Source: Cohnella sp. AR92
Lineage (GTDB): Bacteria; Bacillota; Bacilli; Paenibacillales; Paenibacillaceae
Length of the DNA stretch: 64,000 nt
Direction: 5' to 3'
Assembly (NCBI RefSeq): GCF_003990975.1
Contig: NZ_RZJR01000002.1
Span: forward strand, 407,550 to 471,549
This document shows positions 324 to 23,380 of the stretch, in pieces. Position numbers and translations under genes: made by a program. The stretch's first letter is position 1. Every line of letters begins with the position of its first letter. The notes beneath the pieces are model-generated. The model had not been told where the DNA came from, made no database searches, and saw nothing but the letters and a program-made list of their open reading frames with translations.

Positions 324-1901
324 TTACTTCTTCACCGATAGCGCCTTCGCTTGCGTGAACTGGAGCAGGTAGTCGTGGCCTCCGGCCTTGGAATCGGTGC
401 CCGACATGTTGAAGCCGCCGAACGGATGGGCGCCGACCAAGGCGCCGGTGCACTTGCGGTTCACGTACAGGTTGCCGCAGTGCATCGTGTCCAGGGCTTC
501 CTCGATTCGGGCTTCATCCCTCGAGAAGAAAGAGCCGGTGAGGCCGAACTCCGTGTCGTTGTAGAGCGCGATCGCCTCGCGCCAATCCTTGGCCTTGCCG
601 ATCGCGAGCACCGGGCCGAAAATTTCTTCCTGCATGATGCGCGCCTTGCCGTCCACGTCGGCGAAGACGGTCGGCTGAATGTAGTAACCGTTGCCTTCCG
701 CTTTGCCTCCGCCGACTAGAAGCCTTCCTTCGCTTTTGCCTATCTCGATATAATCAAGGATTCTGCGAAACGAGGTTTCGTCGATTACCGGTCCCGCCGC
801 GTAATTCTCCTCCGGCAAGCCGATGGCGAGCCGCTTGGTCAGCGCCGCGACCTTCTCGACCACTTGGTCGTAGACGGCTTCGACGATGAACGCCCGGGAG
901 CCCGCGGAGCACTTCTGCCCTTGGAAGCCGAACGCCGACGCAACGATCGCTTGCGCCGCCGCGTCCAGGTCGGCCGTCTCGTCGACGACGATGCCGTCCT
1001 TGCCGCCCATCTCCGCCACGAGCCGCTTGATCCAGATCTGGCCGGGAGCCGTCTCCGCCGCCAGCCGGCTGATATGAAGGCCCACTTCCTTCGAACCGGT
1101 GAAGCTGACGAAGCGGGTTCGCGGATGGCCCGTCAGATAATCCCCGACTTCGGCTCCGCTTCCGGGGAGGTAATTGATGACGCCGGGCGGCAGCCCGATC
1201 TCTTCCATCAGCTCGACGAACATGTGCGCGATGACCGGCGTCGTCGATGCCGGCTTCAGCACCACCGTATTGCCGGAGACGACCGCCGCGCTCGTCATGC
1301 CGACGCAGATCGCGAGCGGGAAATTCCAGGGCGGGATCACGATGCCGACGCCCAGCGGAATGTAGCGCAGCTTGTTATCTTCGCCGGCCACCGCCGTCAG
1401 CGGCTGCGCCTCGTTAATCCGGCTCAGGCGAATCATCTCTCGGGCATAGTATTCGAGGAAGTCGATCGCTTCCGCCGTATCGGCGTCCGCTTCGGCGTAG
1501 TTCTTGCCCGATTCCAGGATCATCGTTGCTGAGAATTCATGCTTGCGCTCGCGCAACCGCTTCGCGGCCTTGAACAGATATTCCGCGCGGTCGGCCGCCG
1601 GCACCTTCTTCCAAGTCTCGAATGCCGCCAGCGCCGCTTGCATCGCTTTCTCGGCCAACTCCCGGTTCGCCTTGCTGACGTAACCGACGACCTCGTCCAG
1701 ATTGCCGGGATTCCGCGATTGGATCTTGGCTTCCGTGTAAATCTTCTCCGCTCCGATATGCAGCGGATATTCGGCGTTCAACGCTTCCTTCGCCTTGGCA
1801 ATCGCCTTCTCCATCGCTATCCGGTTCTCTTCCAGCTTAAAATCGACGAACGGTTCGTTGGCAAAAGGACTTCTATTCGTAACTATGCTCATCCTCCGCA
1901 T
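324..1901 (-). CDS. rocA: 1-pyrroline-5-carboxylate dehydrogenase
   Basis: This cytosolic enzyme oxidises pyrroline-5-carboxylate / glutamate semialdehyde to glutamate with NAD+, the last step of proline and arginine breakdown. The 525-residue protein has the aldehyde dehydrogenase fold, with the IPPWNFP segment near residue 189, the general-base glutamate in AEMGG (Glu297) and the nucleophile in FQGQKCSAG (Cys331). Length and the N-terminal segment FANEPFVDF match Bacillus RocA. An in-frame ATG at 1892 also fits a ribosome site (AGGAG), and so does the ATG at 1901 (AGGGAG); either may be used. The gene stands alone, with its own terminator and a 430-base non-coding stretch upstream that carries a repeat array. 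No putA or roc neighbours are present. Confidence 0.93.
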   Translation of the reverse strand: MRRMSIVTNRSPFANEPFVDFKLEENRIAMEKAIAKAKEALNAEYPLHIGAEKIYTEAKIQSRNPGNLDEVVGYVSKANRELAEKAMQAALAAFETWKKVPAADRAEYLFKAAKRLRERKHEFSATMILESGKNYAEADADTAEAIDFLEYYAREMIRLSRINEAQPLTAVAGEDNKLRYIPLGVGIVIPPWNFPLAICVGMTSAAVVSGNTVVLKPASTTPVIAHMFVELMEEIGLPPGVINYLPGSGAEVGDYLTGHPRTRFVSFTGSKEVGLHISRLAAETAPGQIWIKRLVAEMGGKDGIVVDETADLDAAAQAIVASAFGFQGQKCSAGSRAFIVEAVYDQVVEKVAALTKRLAIGLPEENYAAGPVIDETSFRRILDYIEIGKSEGRLLVGGGKAEGNGYYIQPTVFADVDGKARIMQEEIFGPVLAIGKAKDWREAIALYNDTEFGLTGSFFSRDEARIEEALDTMHCGNLYVNRKCTGALVGAHPFGGFNMSGTDSKAGGHDYLLQFTQAKALSVKK

Positions 1902-2074: not shown

Positions 2075-2257
2075 TAACGGAACGGAGAGCCCTTATTTCG
2101 CCCAAAAAACGAGAATTCTATTTTTAACGGAACGGAGAGCCCTTATTTCGGGATTTCACCCTATAAAAGCGCGTAAAAACAGAAATAAAGGTCACCTAGT
2201 TCCGTTAGAAATCGGATAGCCGCTTTTTCGAGCTATTAAGGGCCGTGAGTTCCGTTA
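2075..2257. repeat. 183-bp composite inverted-repeat element, copy 1
   Basis: Two direct copies of a unit beginning TAACGGAA and containing CCCTTATTT start at 2075 and 2125 (26 identical bases in each). Two inverted copies end with TTCCGTTA at 2207 and 2257. The period is exactly 50 nt on each arm and the total is 183 bp, giving a large imperfect hairpin if transcribed. The same layout occurs at 22700-22882. It fills most of the gap between rocA (start 1901) and the sbcC terminator (2277). Nothing else is seen in 1902-2074. Confidence 0.85.
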
Positions 2258-2335: not shown

Positions 2336-5300
2336 TCAGCTCACCCGGAATCTCGTATAGCTGCAGCCCTCGGCCGATTTCTTGACCTCCAGAACGGCGG
2401 GGATCGCCTGCTTCAGCTCCTGGACGTGGGAGATGATGCCGATCATGCGTCCGGTCTGCTGAAGCTCGATCAGCGTGTCTATCGCTTTGTTCAGCGATTC
2501 CTCGTCGAGCGAGCCGAAGCCTTCGTCGATAAACATCGTCTCCAGCGAGATGCCGCCTTCGTAGGACTGGATAACGTCGGCCATGCCGAGCGCCAGGCAG
2601 AGGGAAGCGTTGAACTTCTCGCCCCCCGACAGCGTCTTCACGTCGCGATACTGCCCCGTGTAGTTGTCGAACACGTCGAGGCCGAGGCCGCTCTGCTTGC
2701 CGTGCTTCTCGCGCCGGTCGCTGCGGGCCAGGTAGAACTGGCCTCCCGAGATCGTCTCCAGCCGCAGATTCGCCGCCTGAAGGATCCGGTCCAGGAACTC
2801 GACCAGCAGGTACCGTTCGAAGGAGATCTTGAACTTGTTCTCCCCGCGGACGACGTCGTAGAGATCCTTCACGAGTTGGAACTCTTTCTCCGCCTGCCGG
2901 TACCCGCTTTCCGCCTGAACGATTCTCTCTTTGCCTTCAAGCGCTTTGTCGTGATGGTCCTGCGCCTGCGCCAGCGACTGCCGGGTGAGCTCCAGCTGCG
3001 CTTCCATCCGCTCGTTCTCTTCCGCGAGTGCCGCCAGATCGGCTCGCGCTTTATCCTTAAGCTGCGCTTCCAACTCCTCGACCTGCTTGCGGATCGCCGC
3101 CAGATCGGCATCGAAGCGCTCGATCTCGCGCTTCAGCTCCTCCCGGGCCGAGTCCGACAGCTTCGCCTGCCGGTACTCCTCCTCGGACGCGAAGCCCGCC
3201 GACCGCACCTCGGCGCGGAAGTCCGCGCTCGCCTGCTCCAGGCGCGTTCTCGCCTCGGCCAACTGCTTGTCCGCTCCGGCTTGATTCGCCGCCGCGGCGG
3301 CCTGCCGCTCCCGAGCCGCCTGGAACTGCTCTTGGGCCGCGCGCCAAGCCGCTTCCAGCTTGAGCTTCTCCGCTTCCGTCTCCGCCAGCTTCTTCTCCAG
3401 CGCCGCAAGCGAGCGGATCTCCTCCGGCACGCTGTTCAGCGCCTGCTCATAGAGCGCTTGCTCCGTCGCGAAGGCCGTAGCCAGCCGATGGTGAGCGGCC
3501 GCTTTCTCTTCCTTTTCTCTAACCGCGTTCTCTAGTGCCCGCTCCGTCTGCTCCAGCTGCCGCTTCAGCTCAAGCGCCGCGGCCTGATCCGCTCGCAGCC
3601 TCGCCACTTCGGCGCTGAGCTTCTTGCCCGCCTCGACCAGAGCCAGATAGTCGCGTTCGATGCCCTCGAGGCCGCTCGAGTAGCCCAGCTCGGCCGCCTC
3701 CCGCTCCTTCGCGCGCAGCTGCGCCTCCAGATGCTCCCGCTTCGCCTTGGCTGCCAGATAGGCCGTCTCCAACGCCGATCGCCGGCTCCTTTGCTCCTCT
3801 AGCCTTTCTCTTGAAGGCGTATCTTCGGCCACGACCGCCTTATGGGGATGCGCCGCGCTGCCGCAGACGGGACATGGCATGCCGTCGTGAAGATGTCCGG
3901 CCAGCAAGCCGGCCTGCCCTTCCAGCCATGCGGCTTCCAGCCGCGCGTACTCCCGAGCGGCGGCGTCGAACATCCCTTGCTGCTCCCGCTCCTCCTTGCC
4001 GGTCGCGCTCAGCTCTCTCGCCAATTGAAGATTCTCCTGGAGCACCTTGACGTCCGTCCGCATCCGGTTCAGCTGCTCGTCCAGCTCCGGAAGCGCGACG
4101 ATCTGGCCGTCCAACGCCCGAACGCGTTCCGCCAATCCTCGCTTCTCTTCTTGCAGAGACGCGGCCCGAGAGTCTATCGCCTTCAGCTCGTCATGGGCTT
4201 GAAGCGCCATTCGGCTCGCCCGGTCCACCTGTGCCTTGCGAGTATCCAGCTCGCGAACGACCGGCAGATCCCGATTCATCCTCTCGAGTTCCCGAACGAG
4301 TCGCTCCCGCAGCTCCCCCTTGCTCTCTTCGGCGCGATAGGCCTCTTCCTTCCGGCGGTAATCCTCTTCCGCACTCTCCTTGGCGACTTTCGCTTCCTGC
4401 AGCTGAAGCTCCTTCGTCCGGGCCTCCTCCGCCGCGAACGCGACATGCTTCTCCTGCACCTGAAGCGGCAGCGTCTTCTCGGCGAGCTTCAGCCGTTCCC
4501 GCTTCCGCCCGACCTCGGGGATCTCCGTCTCCAGGCGGTCCCGTTCGGTCCTCTTCCGATCCAGCTCGTCGAACTGAGCATTCAGGGACGCCGCCAGGTG
4601 GAGCTTCTCCACCAGCTCCTTCTGCCGTTTGGTCTCCTCGTCCAGCTTCGCTCTGCGAGAGAGCTTCTCCTCCGCATAATAAGAGATCTCGCTCTCTAAC
4701 GCTTCGAGCACCTGATAGGCGTTGTAATGCTCCTCGGCCAGCACCCGATGGAGCTCGGAGCCTTCCCTCTCTTCCAAGGCGAGCCGAAGGTTGACCGTCA
4801 GCATGTCCAAGTCGCGCTTGGCGAGCTCGCAGGCGGCCTGCGCCGTCCTTCTCCGGTCGTTGAGAATCTCGGCCACGTTCTTGAAGAGGTGCGTTCGGAA
4901 AATTTTCCGCAGAATCTCCTCTTTGTTCTCCGTGTCGGACGTGAGCAGCTTGCGGAATTCGCCCTGGGGAAGCATCACGATCTGGCTGAACTGCTCCTTC
5001 GTGAGCCCGATCAGGCTCTGCATTCTCTCGTTGATCTGCCGGACCATGTACCGGTCCACCATCATTTTCTCCTGGCCGCCGGTCGTCTCCACGAACTCGT
5101 ACCTCTCGCCCGTCGCGTTCTTGTTGCCTTCCTTGACGTGGGACAGCTGCCTCAGAATGCGATAGGTACGCTTCTTCAGCTCGAACTCGAACTCGACCGC
5201 CGTATGGACGTCATCCTCCGCGAACTGGCTGCGCAGGTTCTTCGAATCGCTGCGGTCCTCCCCGCTCGCTTCTCCGTAGATCGCGAAGCAGATCGCGTCG

Positions 5301-5443
5301 AAGATCGAAGTTTTGCCCGCGCCGGTATTGCCGGAGACGAGGAACAGACGGTGGCCGTTCAGCTCGGAGAAATCGATCGTCTCCTTGTCCTTATACGGCC
5401 CGAACGCCGTCATGGTCAGCTTGATGGGCTTCATTCCGTTCAC
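2336..5443 (-). CDS. sbcC: SbcC/Rad50-type DNA repair ATPase
   Basis: This is the ATPase subunit of the SbcCD nuclease, which opens hairpins and processes DNA ends and protein-blocked ends. The 1035-residue protein has the SMC-like layout: N-terminal Walker A GNTGAGKTS (residues 38-46), Q-loop region QIVMLPQGEF (about 154-163), two long coiled-coil arms, a zinc hook CPVC at 524-527, and C-terminal signature LSGGEKF with Walker B MFIDEGFGSLD. It overlaps the 3' end of sbcD by about 50 bases, so translation is probably coupled. The listed start is GTG; an ATG three codons inside (5434) is equally plausible. The family's usual length is about 1050 residues, so it is intact. Confidence 0.95.
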   Translation of the reverse strand: MNGMKPIKLTMTAFGPYKDKETIDFSELNGHRLFLVSGNTGAGKTSIFDAICFAIYGEASGEDRSDSKNLRSQFAEDDVHTAVEFEFELKKRTYRILRQLSHVKEGNKNATGERYEFVETTGGQEKMMVDRYMVRQINERMQSLIGLTKEQFSQIVMLPQGEFRKLLTSDTENKEEILRKIFRTHLFKNVAEILNDRRRTAQAACELAKRDLDMLTVNLRLALEEREGSELHRVLAEEHYNAYQVLEALESEISYYAEEKLSRRAKLDEETKRQKELVEKLHLAASLNAQFDELDRKRTERDRLETEIPEVGRKRERLKLAEKTLPLQVQEKHVAFAAEEARTKELQLQEAKVAKESAEEDYRRKEEAYRAEESKGELRERLVRELERMNRDLPVVRELDTRKAQVDRASRMALQAHDELKAIDSRAASLQEEKRGLAERVRALDGQIVALPELDEQLNRMRTDVKVLQENLQLARELSATGKEEREQQGMFDAAAREYARLEAAWLEGQAGLLAGHLHDGMPCPVCGSAAHPHKAVVAEDTPSRERLEEQRSRRSALETAYLAAKAKREHLEAQLRAKEREAAELGYSSGLEGIERDYLALVEAGKKLSAEVARLRADQAAALELKRQLEQTERALENAVREKEEKAAAHHRLATAFATEQALYEQALNSVPEEIRSLAALEKKLAETEAEKLKLEAAWRAAQEQFQAARERQAAAAANQAGADKQLAEARTRLEQASADFRAEVRSAGFASEEEYRQAKLSDSAREELKREIERFDADLAAIRKQVEELEAQLKDKARADLAALAEENERMEAQLELTRQSLAQAQDHHDKALEGKERIVQAESGYRQAEKEFQLVKDLYDVVRGENKFKISFERYLLVEFLDRILQAANLRLETISGGQFYLARSDRREKHGKQSGLGLDVFDNYTGQYRDVKTLSGGEKFNASLCLALGMADVIQSYEGGISLETMFIDEGFGSLDEESLNKAIDTLIELQQTGRMIGIISHVQELKQAIPAVLEVKKSAEGCSYTRFRVS

Positions 5444-16998: not shown

Positions 16999-18711
16999 TC
17001 AGAATAGAAAATACCTCTGCGCCATCGGCAGCGTCTTGGCAGGCTCGCAAACCGCCGGCACTCCGTCTACCGTCACCTTATACGTCTCCGGATCGACCTC
17101 GATCTTCGGCGTCGCGTCGTTGTGAACCATATCCTTCTTGCCGATTCCTCGGCAGCGGCGCACCGGCTCGACCCTCTTGGCGAGGCCAAGTCGCTCCGCG
17201 ATGCCGCCGTCGTAAGCCGCCTGGGAGACGAAGGTAATCGAGCTCTGGGAGAGCGAACGGCCGAAGGAAGCGAACATCGGCCTGCCGAACACCGGCTGCG
17301 GAGTCGGGATGGACGCGTTCGGGTCGCCCATCTGAGCGAAGGCGATACTGCCCCCTTTGAGCACCAGATCCGGCTTCACGCCGAAGAAGGCCGGGGACCA
17401 GACGGTCAAGTCCGCCCACTTGCCGGGCTCGACGGAGCCGACCAGATGGGAGATGCCGTGGGCGATGGCGGGGTTGATCGTATATTTCGCGATGTAACGC
17501 TTTATCCTAGCGTTATCGCCATCCTCGTCGTCGCCGGTCAGCGGTCCGCGCTGGGCTTTCATTTTGTCGGCCGTCTGCCAGGTGCGGAGGATGACTTCGC
17601 CGACCCTTCCCATCGCCTGGGAGTCCGAGCTGATGATGCTGAAAGCGCCGATATCGTGCAGGATGTCCTCGGCGGCGATCGTCTCGGGCCGGATGCGGGA
17701 GTCGGCGAACGCGACGTCCTCGGGGATGCGGCTGTCCAGGTGATGGCAAACCATAAGCATATCCAGATGTTCTTCGATGGTGTTGACCGTGAACGGCCGG
17801 GTAGGATTCGTGGAGGAAGGAATGACGTTCGGTTCGGAGGCCGCCTTGATGATGTCCGGAGCGTGTCCGCCCCCCGCGCCTTCCGTGTGGTAAGTATGGA
17901 TGGTCCGGCCGCCGATCGCGCGGAGCGTATCTTCGACGAAGCCGGCTTCGTTAAGCGTATCGGTATGAATGGCGACTTGCACGTCGTATCGGTCTGCCGC
18001 CTGGAGGCAAGCGTCGATCGCGGCGGGAGTTGTGCCCCAATCCTCGTGCAGCTTCAAGCCGATCGCCCCCGCCTCGATCTGCTCGATCAGCGGAGGAAGG
18101 GAACTGGCGTTGCCCTTGCCGAGAAAACCGAGGTTCATGGGAAAAGCCTCCGCCGCCTCCAGCATCCGCCGAAGGTGCCAGGATCCCGGCGTGCAGGTCG
18201 TCGCGTTCGTGCCCGTCGCCGGCCCGGTGCCGCCTCCGATCATGGTCGTGACGCCCGAGGAGAGCGCCGTTTCGATCTGCTGGGGAGCGATGAAGTGAAT
18301 GTGCGCGTCGATCCCGCCGGCCGTGACGATTCTGCCTTCGCCGGCGATAATCTCGGTGCTTGCGCCGATGATCAGGTTCGGGTCGACGCCGTCCATGATG
18401 TCGGGGTTGCCCGCTTTGCCGATTCCGGCGATACGGCCGTCCTTCAACCCGATGTCGGCTTTGACGATTCCCCAATGGTCGATGAGCAGCGCGTTCGTGA
18501 TGAGCGTGTCCAGCACTCCATCGTCCCGGACCGCCCGGCTTGCCTGCCCCATTCCGTCCCGAACGACCTTGCCGCCGCCGAACTTGTTCTCGTCGCCGTA
18601 GACGGTGTAATCCTTCTCGACCTTCGCCCATAGGTCCGTATCCGCGAGCCGGACCGCGTCTCCGGTCGTCGGGCCGAACATGCCGGCATATCGGCTTCGT
18701 TCGATTCTCAT
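16999..18711 (-). CDS. ureC: Urease alpha subunit (catalytic)
   Basis: This is the catalytic subunit of urease, a nickel amidohydrolase that splits urea to ammonia and carbamate. The 570-residue protein shows all key elements: DAHIHFI (nickel ligands), the carbamylated lysine in [12 protein letters not shown], further histidine ligands in [12 protein letters not shown] and [14 protein letters not shown], the flap MVCHHLD and the catalytic Asp in [21 protein letters not shown]-type sequence. The ATG start overlaps the ureB stop by four bases (ATGA). The gene order ureA-B-C as separate subunits is that of most Bacillota. Confidence 0.98.
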
Positions 18712-21487: not shown

Positions 21488-21886
21488 TTATTGCTCAAGC
21501 ACCTTCTCAAACTGGCCGAACCATTCCCCCCAGCCATATCTGGCGCCTTCCAGCCCTTGAGTATGGGAGAAGCCCGATTGCTCGAGGTGAAGATTGACCT
21601 TCCCGTCCCCCAGAACCTGCAGCGTCCAAGTGACCGTTTGCTGTTCCCCTCCGCTCGCCCAGATATAGGACAACCGATTGGGTTCGTCCACGGTCAGCAC
21701 TTCTCCGTCAACGATTCCGTCCCACCATTCGGACGGCTGATGGCGGAACTGGAAACGATGTCCTGCGACGGGCTTAAAGTCATTCACCGCGATCCACCCG
21801 GCAAGCTTGCCGGAATCGGTTAAGGCAGACCAGGCCTTCTCGATCGACGTCGCGAATGAGAAATCCATGGATAAAGTGAAACTCAT
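21488..21886 (-). CDS. SRPBCC (AHSA1-like) domain protein
   Basis: The 132-residue protein belongs to the START/Bet v1-like superfamily, AHSA1 type: MSFTLSMDFSFATSIEKAWSALTDSGKLAGWI at the start, RFQFRHQPSEWWDGIVDGEV and a final helix GWGEWFGQFEKVLEQ. These proteins bind small hydrophobic ligands in a helix-grip cavity; the ligand here is unknown. Its ATG overlaps the stop of the ArsR-type gene by four bases (ATGA), so the two are translated together. The ArsR-SRPBCC pairing is common in Bacillota. The longer upstream frame to 21961 is the shadow of the regulator. Confidence 0.85.
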   Translation of the reverse strand: MSFTLSMDFSFATSIEKAWSALTDSGKLAGWIAVNDFKPVAGHRFQFRHQPSEWWDGIVDGEVLTVDEPNRLSYIWASGGEQQTVTWTLQVLGDGKVNLHLEQSGFSHTQGLEGARYGWGEWFGQFEKVLEQ

Positions 21887-22212
21887 TCTTCTTCCTCCTC
21901 TAATAGTTCGTTTAAGCGATGCAGATTCGTCTCCCAGAACTTGCTGTAAGACTCCGTCCACTCCAGAATTTCTCTGAGCGGTGAAGCATTCAGCCGAAAT
22001 CGCGTTTCTCTGCCGGCTTTGCGGTCAAGCACCAGTCCCGCCTCTTTAAGGATGGTCAGATGCTTGGATAGCGCCGTACGGCCTATCGCAAACTGCGCGG
22101 TCAACTCATGCAGCGGGATCTCCTCGGCCTCTGCCAACAGACGGATCAGCCGACGCCGGGTCGGATCCGCGATCGCGTCGAACACATCCCGCAACGGGTT
22201 ATCCTCGCCCAT
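21883..22212 (-). CDS. ArsR-family transcriptional regulator
   Basis: The 109-residue winged-helix repressor has FDAIADPTRRRLIRLLAEAEE, then a helix-turn-helix ELTAQFAIGRTALSKHLTILKEAGLV and the wing DRKAGRETRFRLN. No metal-binding cysteine pair (ELCVCDL type) is present, so it is not a classical arsenic or zinc sensor. The ATG at 22212 follows GGAGGGGG; the longer frame to 22287 has no ribosome site. The promoter upstream carries two copies of a 16-bp palindrome, one inside the -35/-10 spacer, pointing to autorepression. Confidence 0.9.
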   Translation of the reverse strand: MGEDNPLRDVFDAIADPTRRRLIRLLAEAEEIPLHELTAQFAIGRTALSKHLTILKEAGLVLDRKAGRETRFRLNASPLREILEWTESYSKFWETNLHRLNELLEEEEE

Positions 22213-22335
22213 AACCCCCCTCCAAAAATTGAACTCCCATCCAAACCCCTTGCATCTGAGCCCGAACCAAGCTGAGCCAAACGCCAACTATGCGGGCCCA
22301 AATCCATCTAAACCCAATCCAGTCGAATCCATTTG

Positions 22336-22387: not shown

Positions 22388-22539
22388 TGCTGATAAGGAA
22401 GCATTACCGGCAAGATCAAGATCATCGCCATCGCTTTTCCGGACGCGCCGCACTATTCCTTGCCCTTATTCGCAGGCCCGCACGCCAACAACCGATTTGC
22501 TAATCATCAAGTCGCCGTCCTTTCCGCAATCCGTTATCC

Positions 22540-22680
22540 GCTGGCGGCTATCCTCCTTCCGCAATCGGCTAATCCGCTGATCGGCTTTATTCGCTATCGT
22601 CTATCACCGCTATTGTCTATCACCGCTATCGGCTGTTCTGCTATTGGCTATCCGCATCCGCTAATCCGTTGATCGGCTTG
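22540..22680. repeat. Low-complexity region of short direct repeats
   Basis: Two 20-nt copies of GCTAATCCGCTGATCGGCTT lie at 22568-22587 and 22660-22679 (one mismatch). A 16-nt tandem GTCTATCACCGCTATT is at 22599-22630, with more GCTAT(C/T) runs around it. No ORF with coding character is visible. It lies between the ArsR promoter and the second 183-bp element. Confidence 0.75.
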
Positions 22681-22699
22681 CCCTTTCTCAGCTGGCGGC

Positions 22700-22882
22700 T
22701 AACGGAAGTGAGAGCCCTTATTTGTTCGAAATTGAGGTGTTTTAAATTCTAACGGAAGTGAGCGACGCTTAAATTCGTCATTTGGCCTCGAAGTGAGGTT
22801 TATTGTCAGAATAAGGGCCGTGGCTTCCGTTAAAATCCAAAAGGCTTCAATCTGCGCCTCTAAGGGTCTCAGATTTCCGTTA
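22700..22882. repeat. 183-bp composite inverted-repeat element, copy 2
   Basis: Direct units start TAACGGAAGTGAG at 22700 and 22750. Inverted units end TTCCGTTA at 22832 and 22882. All internal distances (50, 82, 50) equal those of the copy at 2075-2257, although the spacers differ in sequence. The two arms are complementary across the spacers as well, and the tip is CCTCGAAGTGAGG (22787-22799). It lies downstream of the VOC gene, where a terminator would be expected. Confidence 0.85.
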
Positions 22883-22915: not shown

Positions 22916-23269
22916 TCATTGATTATGAGCAAGAATATTGATAAGCTTGCCGAACGGGTCGCGGACAAAGAATCGTCGAACGCCCCAAGGCTCGTCAGCA
23001 GGCCCATATTCGATGGGAAATCCGGCTTTCTTCATGCCTTCTAGAGCCGCGTCGGCATCATCGACTTCAATCGATAGATCGGGAGTAGGCGTTTCCGAGC
23101 CGCCTTGCGAGGCGAAGCTGATTTGAATATTCATCTCTTCGTTCAGACCATAAGTTCTAATCCACCCATGGTCCATCATCAATTCGAGGCCGAGCACATC
23201 TTGATAGAAGCTTTTAGCCGCCGTGATCTCTTTCGTATGGACATTGGCGACGATTCGTTTGACCTTCAT
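22916..23269 (-). CDS. VOC-superfamily (glyoxalase-like) protein
   Basis: The 117-residue single vicinal-oxygen-chelate protein has two beta-alpha-beta-beta-beta modules: MKVKRIVANVHTKEITAAKSFYQDVLGLELMMD and DLSIEVDDADAALEGMKKAGFPIEYGPADEPWGVRRFFVRDPFGKLINIL. The C-terminal FFVRDPFGKLINIL is the usual VOC ending with a possible metal ligand region. Members include glyoxalases, dioxygenases and antibiotic-binding proteins; nothing here fixes the activity. The ATG at 23269 is chosen from GGGGGG upstream and from homology; the frame extends to 23317. It is a single-gene unit. Confidence 0.85.
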   Translation of the reverse strand: MKVKRIVANVHTKEITAAKSFYQDVLGLELMMDHGWIRTYGLNEEMNIQISFASQGGSETPTPDLSIEVDDADAALEGMKKAGFPIEYGPADEPWGVRRFFVRDPFGKLINILAHNQ

Positions 23270-23380
23270 TCCAATCCCCCCAGGCATAACCAGATTGTCC
23301 TTCAAGTTAGAAAACATTCGACGCCTAAGCGCGAATTCTTGCGTCCCCCTAACCGATCATAGAAAATAAAATCCGCCCAT

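Follow-up and report, generated by a model that had tools for sequence, protein, structure and literature searches.

The window, a stretch of 64,000 nucleotides from a contig of Cohnella sp. AR92, carries two intergenic four-unit elements (Table 1). The first is situated 79 bp from the stop codon of an SbcC-like gene (2336-5443, minus strand), and on its other side an aldehyde dehydrogenase gene (324-1901, minus strand) starts 174 bp away. A glyoxalase-like gene (22916-23317, minus strand) ends 34 bp from the second element, and the start of an ArsR-like gene (21883-22287, minus strand) is 413 bp distant. Other features were observed in the same DNA. A hairpin with 22-nt arms that are 91% complementary occupies positions 2277-2323, in the gap that separates the SbcC-like gene from the first element; it is perhaps the terminator of that gene and is absent from the output of a simple terminator scan. 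Next to the second element (22450-22690) the sequence is of low complexity, with words that resemble GCTATC / TCCGCTAATC. Positions 18267-18566 match Rfam family RF02514 (5' ureB sRNA) with 99.3 bits, a match that may simply reflect conserved urease coding sequence.

Table 1. Positions of the two elements and of their units in the window.
Feature	Position	Strand	Remarks
First four-unit element	2075..2257	.	183 bp, intergenic
Unit 1 dyad, first element	2075..2096	+	perfect half-site TAACGGAA, second half degenerate
Unit 2 dyad, first element	2125..2146	+	
Unit 3 dyad, first element	2186..2207	-	inverted
Unit 4 dyad, first element	2236..2257	-	inverted
Second four-unit element	22700..22882	.	183 bp, intergenic
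Unit 1 dyad, second element	22700..22721	+	
Unit 2 dyad, second element	22750..22771	+	
Unit 3 dyad, second element	22811..22832	-	inverted
Unit 4 dyad, second element	22861..22882	-	inverted

Both copies have two TAACGGAA boxes (offsets 1 and 51) followed by two TTCCGTTA boxes (offsets 126 and 176), with start-to-start spacings of 50, 75 and 50 bp. A sequence-only reading of the locus had described two copies with a total length of 183 bp and a 50-82-50 layout; this is exact to the base in each of them, and the two are identical at 95 of 183 positions. The core proposed in that reading fared less well: its constant part is TAACGGAA, but the longer CCCTTATTT is missing from some units, unit 2 of the second copy, for instance, being GACGCTTAAAT.

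When the complete genome (6.02 Mb in 36 contigs) was searched with a pattern of 32 fixed bases, fixed spacing and up to three mismatches, 38 four-box elements emerged, and none with the reversed pattern; two further copies measure 182 and 184 bp. Searches with fixed spacing found the four-box pattern also in 9 of 60 relatives (up to two mismatches); across the order they found it in 31 of 392 genomes (up to one mismatch; controls 0), which represent 12 of 49 genera and four families. The sequence-only reading would have been refuted by a lack of further copies or by random spacing; copies were found in the genome and in relatives, and their spacing is not random. Its argument that fixed geometry combined with diverged sequence points to selection is supported.

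Each unit is a dyad of 21-23 bp, TAACGGAA-N5-7-TTCCGTTA, the second half of which is degenerate in the window's family. Across 153 gap-free copies the conserved positions of the unit are TAACGGAA at 1-8, G15, C17, T20 and A/T at 21-23. Genome G197 has, in addition, elements made of perfect dyads (TAACGGAA-N6-TTCCGTTA) with starts 52, 63 and 51 bp apart. Taken together with the conserved positions, these perfect-dyad elements identify the window's family as a half-degenerate form, whose unit combines one strict and one loose half-site.

When the unit spacing was left open over 35-65 bp in eight genomes, hand counts for the two whose matches were listed gave exactly 50 bp in 48 of 53 matches from genome G047 and in 77 of 97 listed matches (116 in all) from G197; part of the G197 departures are the perfect-dyad elements. 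Centre distances between neighbouring dyads (138 pairs, many of them from a single genome, G138, that was fetched by its dyads) took only the values 50-52.5, 61-64, 71-73, 100.5-102, 112-116 and 163 bp, or approximately 5, 6, 7, 10, 11 and 16 helical turns. Within the range of 15-400 bp examined, not one of the 138 pairs was spaced by 53-60 or 65-70 bp. In the window's family the A/T content of the DNA between and around the boxes rises and falls every 10.0 bp (power 1.056, against a 99.9% null level of 0.576), with a phase coherence of 0.95 over 114 elements; the value for the flanks is 0.045. An A/T wave, with a peak at about 9.5-10 bp, also runs through the 30-bp linkers of perfect dyads spaced by 51 bp (46 non-redundant linkers). 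In G028, a genome of the window's genus, dyads form a tandem array with a period of about 51 bp over some 800 bp. Dyads on one face of the helix, in phased DNA, point to the assembly of protein on double-stranded DNA.

Perfect dyads (N4-8) occur in 40 of the 392 genomes of the order. Several single matches fall within genes, and some must be due to chance, since the reversed control matched seven genomes once each. In the class, the perfect N5 dyad is present in 6 of 398 genomes (38 of the 398 from the order; the reversed control matched two genomes, once each). Three of the six, from two other families, have several such dyads (40 in G548, 3 in G558 and 2 in G439), and the other three one match apiece. 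A tetrad, spaced 51/61-62/51 or 50/61/50, is present at each of the six loci fetched from G548 and G439; the three G558 loci hold two or three dyads each. Plasmids and phages gave no DNA match to either the window element or the 51-bp array. Viral contigs contained the dyad in 8 cases and the 50-bp half-element in 17, and among these 25 loci several dyads were found only in L352 and a weak tetrad in L360. The L352 tetrad (3015-3210) is perfect, is spaced 51/73/51 and has sulfatase-like and amidase-like genes on either side; it is possibly the host flank of a prophage.

Several isolated occurrences were recorded during these searches. A single TAACGGAA-N5-TTCCGTTA dyad near position 1501 in four genomes of family f7 (L378, L379, L380 and L381) sits between genes read as maf and radC; considered as an operator of the binder, the resemblance gave no lead. 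A tetrad-like element of Paenibacillus sp. Root444D2 (L054, position 6264), spaced 52/61/52, is built on the half-site WTGTTGTA-N5-TACAACAW, unrelated to TAACGGAA. Locus L383 (genome G755) has three dyads about 290 bp apart, and positions 12-115 of L289, at a contig end in G047, hold TAACGGAA units 48 bp apart. An element lies 3' of tatC both in G548 (L384, identified by Pfam) and in the window's genome (L018, read from the translation), an adjacency that may be due to chance.

Elements are conserved in place. One intergenic site of genus g21 holds an element in seven genomes (G180, G154, G113, G127, G074, G271 and G317). These orthologous elements have a mean identity of 79%, and the two 100-bp flanks 36% and 28% (gaps counted as differences); by part, identity is 96% in the strict half-sites, 88% in the second half-sites and 71% in the rest. 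At two such loci, with four genomes each, orthologues are identical at 0.78 and 0.79 and paralogues within a genome at 0.61 and 0.67. A gap common to G014 and the window's genome counts against a simple picture of conservation in place, the element identity there being 0.57, no higher than that of random pairs. The aldehyde dehydrogenase and SbcC genes that border the first element are apart in the genus, among the matches listed; they are nearest in G014, where the intervening 3.7 kb hold no element and hence no readable empty site.

A simple codon model called no gene that overlaps any of 160 elements; the L192 gene, overlooked by that model, has an end that overlaps its element by 49 bp. 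Among the 117 elements with both neighbours called, 63 lie between convergent, 43 between codirectional and 11 between divergent genes, the corresponding figures for 50 baseline gaps being 7, 33 and 10 (chi-square P = 1e-5). When one element is taken per locus the counts are 51, 42 and 10. The remaining 43 elements have a neighbour called on one side or on neither.

Comparison of the genes adjoining the elements brought out a family of proteins of about 220 residues, which was collected by phmmer with one query and then by a profile built from its matches. Of 7206 open frames, 15 belong to the family, and two of these represent the same place (L261 and L283). Its gene is present at 11 distinct element loci in 10 genomes (L008, L170, L188, L192, L200, L210, L261, L269, L274, L412 and L416), and at nine of these the site lies between -49 and +61 bp from the 3' end of the gene. 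Elements flank the gene on both sides at L188, L192 and L261; they are confined to the 5' side at L412 and at L008, in the window's own genome. There, the sole element adjoining the gene (G000:C16:42105-42755, minus strand) is 221 bp off. In G014, too, the element is found only 5' of the gene. The gene was within the fetched 1.5 kb at only 6 of 142 distinct window-type element loci, and our confidence in the explanation favoured below is slightly lower for this reason. The protein had no match in phages; in plasmids it was found in one record.

Five loci carrying a homologue of this gene, none of them fetched for its elements, were inspected, and all five have dyad tetrads or arrays nearby. 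L058 (P. alginolyticus), L059 (P. timonensis) and L114 (P. marchantiophytorum) had been fetched via the window's aldehyde dehydrogenase and, having come through an adjoining gene, are not wholly independent of the window element. L422 (P. cellulosilyticus plasmid record NZ_CP054613.1) and L421 (a viral contig) were found by protein search. At L058, L059, L114 and L421 the tetrads are 30-128 bp from the gene, with blind scores of 49-59 out of 64 (49 for L114); the window elements score 51 and 47 on the same scorer. Among 177 control windows, each of 3 kb, a score of at least 49 was attained just once, and the window concerned (L054, 57) resembles a further tetrad. At L422, 51-bp arrays of the TAGRGGCG type flank the gene on either side, some 180-380 bp away from the matched stretch; the best blind-score row there (50) is off register, and the arrays were read separately. 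Across these five loci the half-sites are altered and the spacing is similar. The half-site of L058 and L114 is AAGGGAA, a near variant of the window's, that of L421 is TAAGAGTC, with spacing 52/63/52, and that of L059 is TAAGTGGA, with spacing 52/62/51. Protein and dyad also vary together: subtype B of the protein (nine loci, at least 53% identical to L188) accompanies half-degenerate dyads with a self-complementarity of 4.2-5.5 out of 8 (L114 left out), and subtype A (seven loci) two-sided dyads with 5.8-8.0 out of 8. This match is confounded by ancestry: subtype B resembles one clade, so that the match possibly represents one or few events.

No Pfam or NCBIfam model matched the protein above cut-off, the weak matches being to the nuclease-like DUF559 and MTES_1575 and to winged helices; PADLOC gave weak helix-turn-helix matches for one of five proteins. 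An AlphaFold2 model has a mean pLDDT of 85, with values below 50 at residues 85-88, beside the invariant His87. Foldseek with this model returned nothing at E <= 0.001. When Foldseek matches were aligned with VIA-align, residues 29-141 superposed on the catalytic domain of I-Bth0305I (Z 12.2, rmsd 2.6, 97 of 97 residues aligned) and residues 144-217 on winged-helix domains (Z about 10-11). The protein is thus predicted to join a Vsr/EDxHD-like nuclease fold to a winged helix. E53, D67, E80 and H87 are invariant in all 14 sequences, and they may correspond to the known EDxHD / Vsr-like motif. Position 82 is Q, D or K; given this variability, catalysis may be lost in some homologues.

The anatomy of the elements, the helical quantisation, the A/T phasing, the conservation in place and the recurrent placement beside genes of one protein family are directly established. 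We consider that the four dyads, whole turns apart in bend-phased DNA, probably form a platform for a dimeric protein, a putative nuclease/winged-helix binder. The dimers would assemble side by side on the four dyads, on one face of the helix, and several of them may wrap or bridge the approximately 183 bp. To judge from the genes beside the elements, the strongest candidate for the binder is the protein with the nuclease fold and winged helix. By analogy with RAYT proteins and their presumed role in the spread of REP elements, a nuclease activity, present or past, may have helped to copy the elements here into new intergenic places. For the dispersed copies, our preferred guess at a host role is a nucleoprotein knot 3' of genes. 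The phased A/T could instead be of use to a different protein that wraps DNA, for instance gyrase or HU. A more ambitious version of the platform reading is, for now, tentative. The nuclease and winged-helix family would own cognate dyad arrays, with half-sites that vary by lineage and a fixed layout of about 51/61/51 bp; the protein, gathered into a wrapped particle on four phased sites, would copy its platform to new intergenic places by means of its nuclease domain, and hosts would then retain the copies as functional sites. If true, bacteria would possess a system of repeat dispersal or homing that has no relation to RAYT-REP, and with it a sequence-specific counterpart of the positioned nucleosome.

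It seems conceivable, if rather unlikely, that the elements are MITEs, the dyads being transposase sites whose geometry is kept by the synapse and the copies having no host function. Terminal inverted repeats are present in the form of the inverted terminal boxes, and the elements are small, non-coding, dispersed and patchy in distribution (31 of 392 genomes). Copies group into subfamilies inside genomes, about six of them stand in tandem with a 240-bp period in G180, and at three loci elements flank a nuclease-fold gene on both sides. Homology between copies mostly stops near the outer boxes, although some subfamilies have flank in common (up to about 300-440 bp in G138), and the outer flank carries almost no information past -2. 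What speaks against this reading is, first, the target site. A weak register signal for target duplication (z up to 7.1) did not resolve into real duplications: in the best register the highest agreement, 7 of 9 bases, was seen in a single element out of 159, and the 21 of 159 elements with at least five matching bases, against about 8.7 expected, are in part tandem copies. Second, copies are kept in place at the loci examined while their flanks are saturated, and orthologues exceed paralogues in identity, neither of which is expected of a dead insertion. The mobile element offered as an alternative in the sequence-only reading survives in part. Dispersal, patchiness, per-genome subfamilies and a plausible partner gene agree with it; the lack of a clear target duplication and the conservation of copies in place do not.

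Somewhat less likely still is a chromosome-architecture site for some general DNA-wrapping protein, be it gyrase, HU or a nucleoid protein as yet unknown, placed where convergent transcription meets, the nuclease-like gene being a passenger. The excess of convergent neighbours among the elements (63 of 117, against 7 of 50 baseline gaps) fits such a role, and the 10-bp A/T phasing resembles the GC periodicity of gyrase sites as given in the relevant passages of PMC6379681. Strict half-sites that vary by lineage are, however, unexpected of gyrase or HU; the distribution is patchy, and the link to the gene would be left without explanation.

The elements were also asked to behave as RNA. After near-identical copies had been dropped, covariation and unit similarity were computed on 116 of the 153 exact elements, the A/T phase above on 114 and the half-swap comparison on 87 of the 116. 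Both window copies fold more stably than shuffled sequence (z -4.75 and -6.82), because their four boxes stand in inverted order. When left and right halves of different elements were joined, with genome and orientation fixed, the folding energies of real and swapped elements did not differ (-57.8 against -58.3 kcal/mol; n = 87, P = 0.48). Their spacers were equally complementary (0.489 in both, P = 0.91). The strongest covariation between units linked the same position across all four, including units that would not pair. Units of one element were more similar than under shuffling in all six pairs (z 1.9-7.3, with a contribution from ancestry, since the shuffle ran across genomes), and the hairpin pair, U2-U3, was the weakest. 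Compensatory covariation at paired positions, the test for a structured RNA, was not observed, and at the gathering threshold Rfam has no match at the element, its one match in the window lying elsewhere. A role as a structured RNA, or as a hairpin at mRNA ends that RNase III would process, is therefore rejected as very improbable, and with it the selection on a long RNA or DNA hairpin that the sequence-only reading had suggested, since any four-fold inverted layout would beat shuffles, half-swapped elements fold equally well, covariation is common to all unit pairs, and helical quantisation and A/T phasing are features of double-stranded DNA.

Among known systems, none so far fits the layout, as the sequence-only reading had supposed; novelty is judged here against the families tested and the open-access literature, in the retrieved passages of which neither the elements nor the protein is named. 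Strong gyrase sites, in the passages of PMC6379681 that describe them, are likewise long symmetric regions with helical A/T-G/C periodicity, but there the 130-bp motif is degenerate and the period 10.75 bp, as opposed to sequence-specific boxes and 10.0 bp here. With bcr1 and other MITEs, as outlined in part of PMC6542083, the elements have in common that they are dispersed, non-coding and of about 100-400 bp; they differ in having no clear target duplication and in that, of 116 elements, only 1 has TTTAT/ATAAA no more than 12 bp from its left end and only 2 from the right end. The sopC site of plasmid F, bound by SopB/ParB, comprises twelve 43-bp repeats with 16-bp inverted repeats, according to the section of PMC6238139 concerned, and as tandem repeats holding inverted repeats it recalls the 51-bp dyad arrays of G028 and P. 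cellulosilyticus. The present elements are, in contrast, dispersed over the chromosome and mostly quasi-palindromic tetrads, and no par genes were recognised beside arrays L270, L274 and L275, whose neighbours were read as translations. The EDxHD homing endonuclease I-Bth0305I, for which dimerisation on a target of nearly 60 bp is reported (PMC3943268, in the part describing it), shares the predicted nuclease fold of the partner protein; the latter differs in being encoded by a free-standing chromosomal gene, in its putative winged helix and in the dyad arrays that adjoin it.

A further likeness is to REP/BIME elements and RAYT, described in the relevant part of PMC3733652 as short, dispersed, lineage-specific intergenic palindromes with a nuclease-type gene that is often flanked by copies. 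The 21-23 bp dyads fall within the 20-40 bp of an imperfect, dispersed, intergenic REP palindrome. They lack the constant GTAG or CGTC tag of REP (near the dyad ends of 464 units, GTAG/CTAC occurs 14 times and CGTC/GACG 39 times), and their spacing keeps to the helical turn, usually with four dyads together. RAYT is an HUH tyrosine transposase, whereas the neighbour here is predicted to be a Vsr/EDxHD-like nuclease with a winged helix. An unnamed, widespread class of intergenic repeats is now tied to a specific, uncharacterised protein family, whose lineage-specific half-sites in a near-constant geometry offer natural swaps for recognition tests. If the platform reading is true, the fixed four-site helical DNA would be a direct testbed for protein-driven wrapping. 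The presence of a nuclease-like gene beside related elements suggests a new repeat-plus-enzyme partnership, one that, if so, would have evolved in bacteria independently of RAYT-REP.
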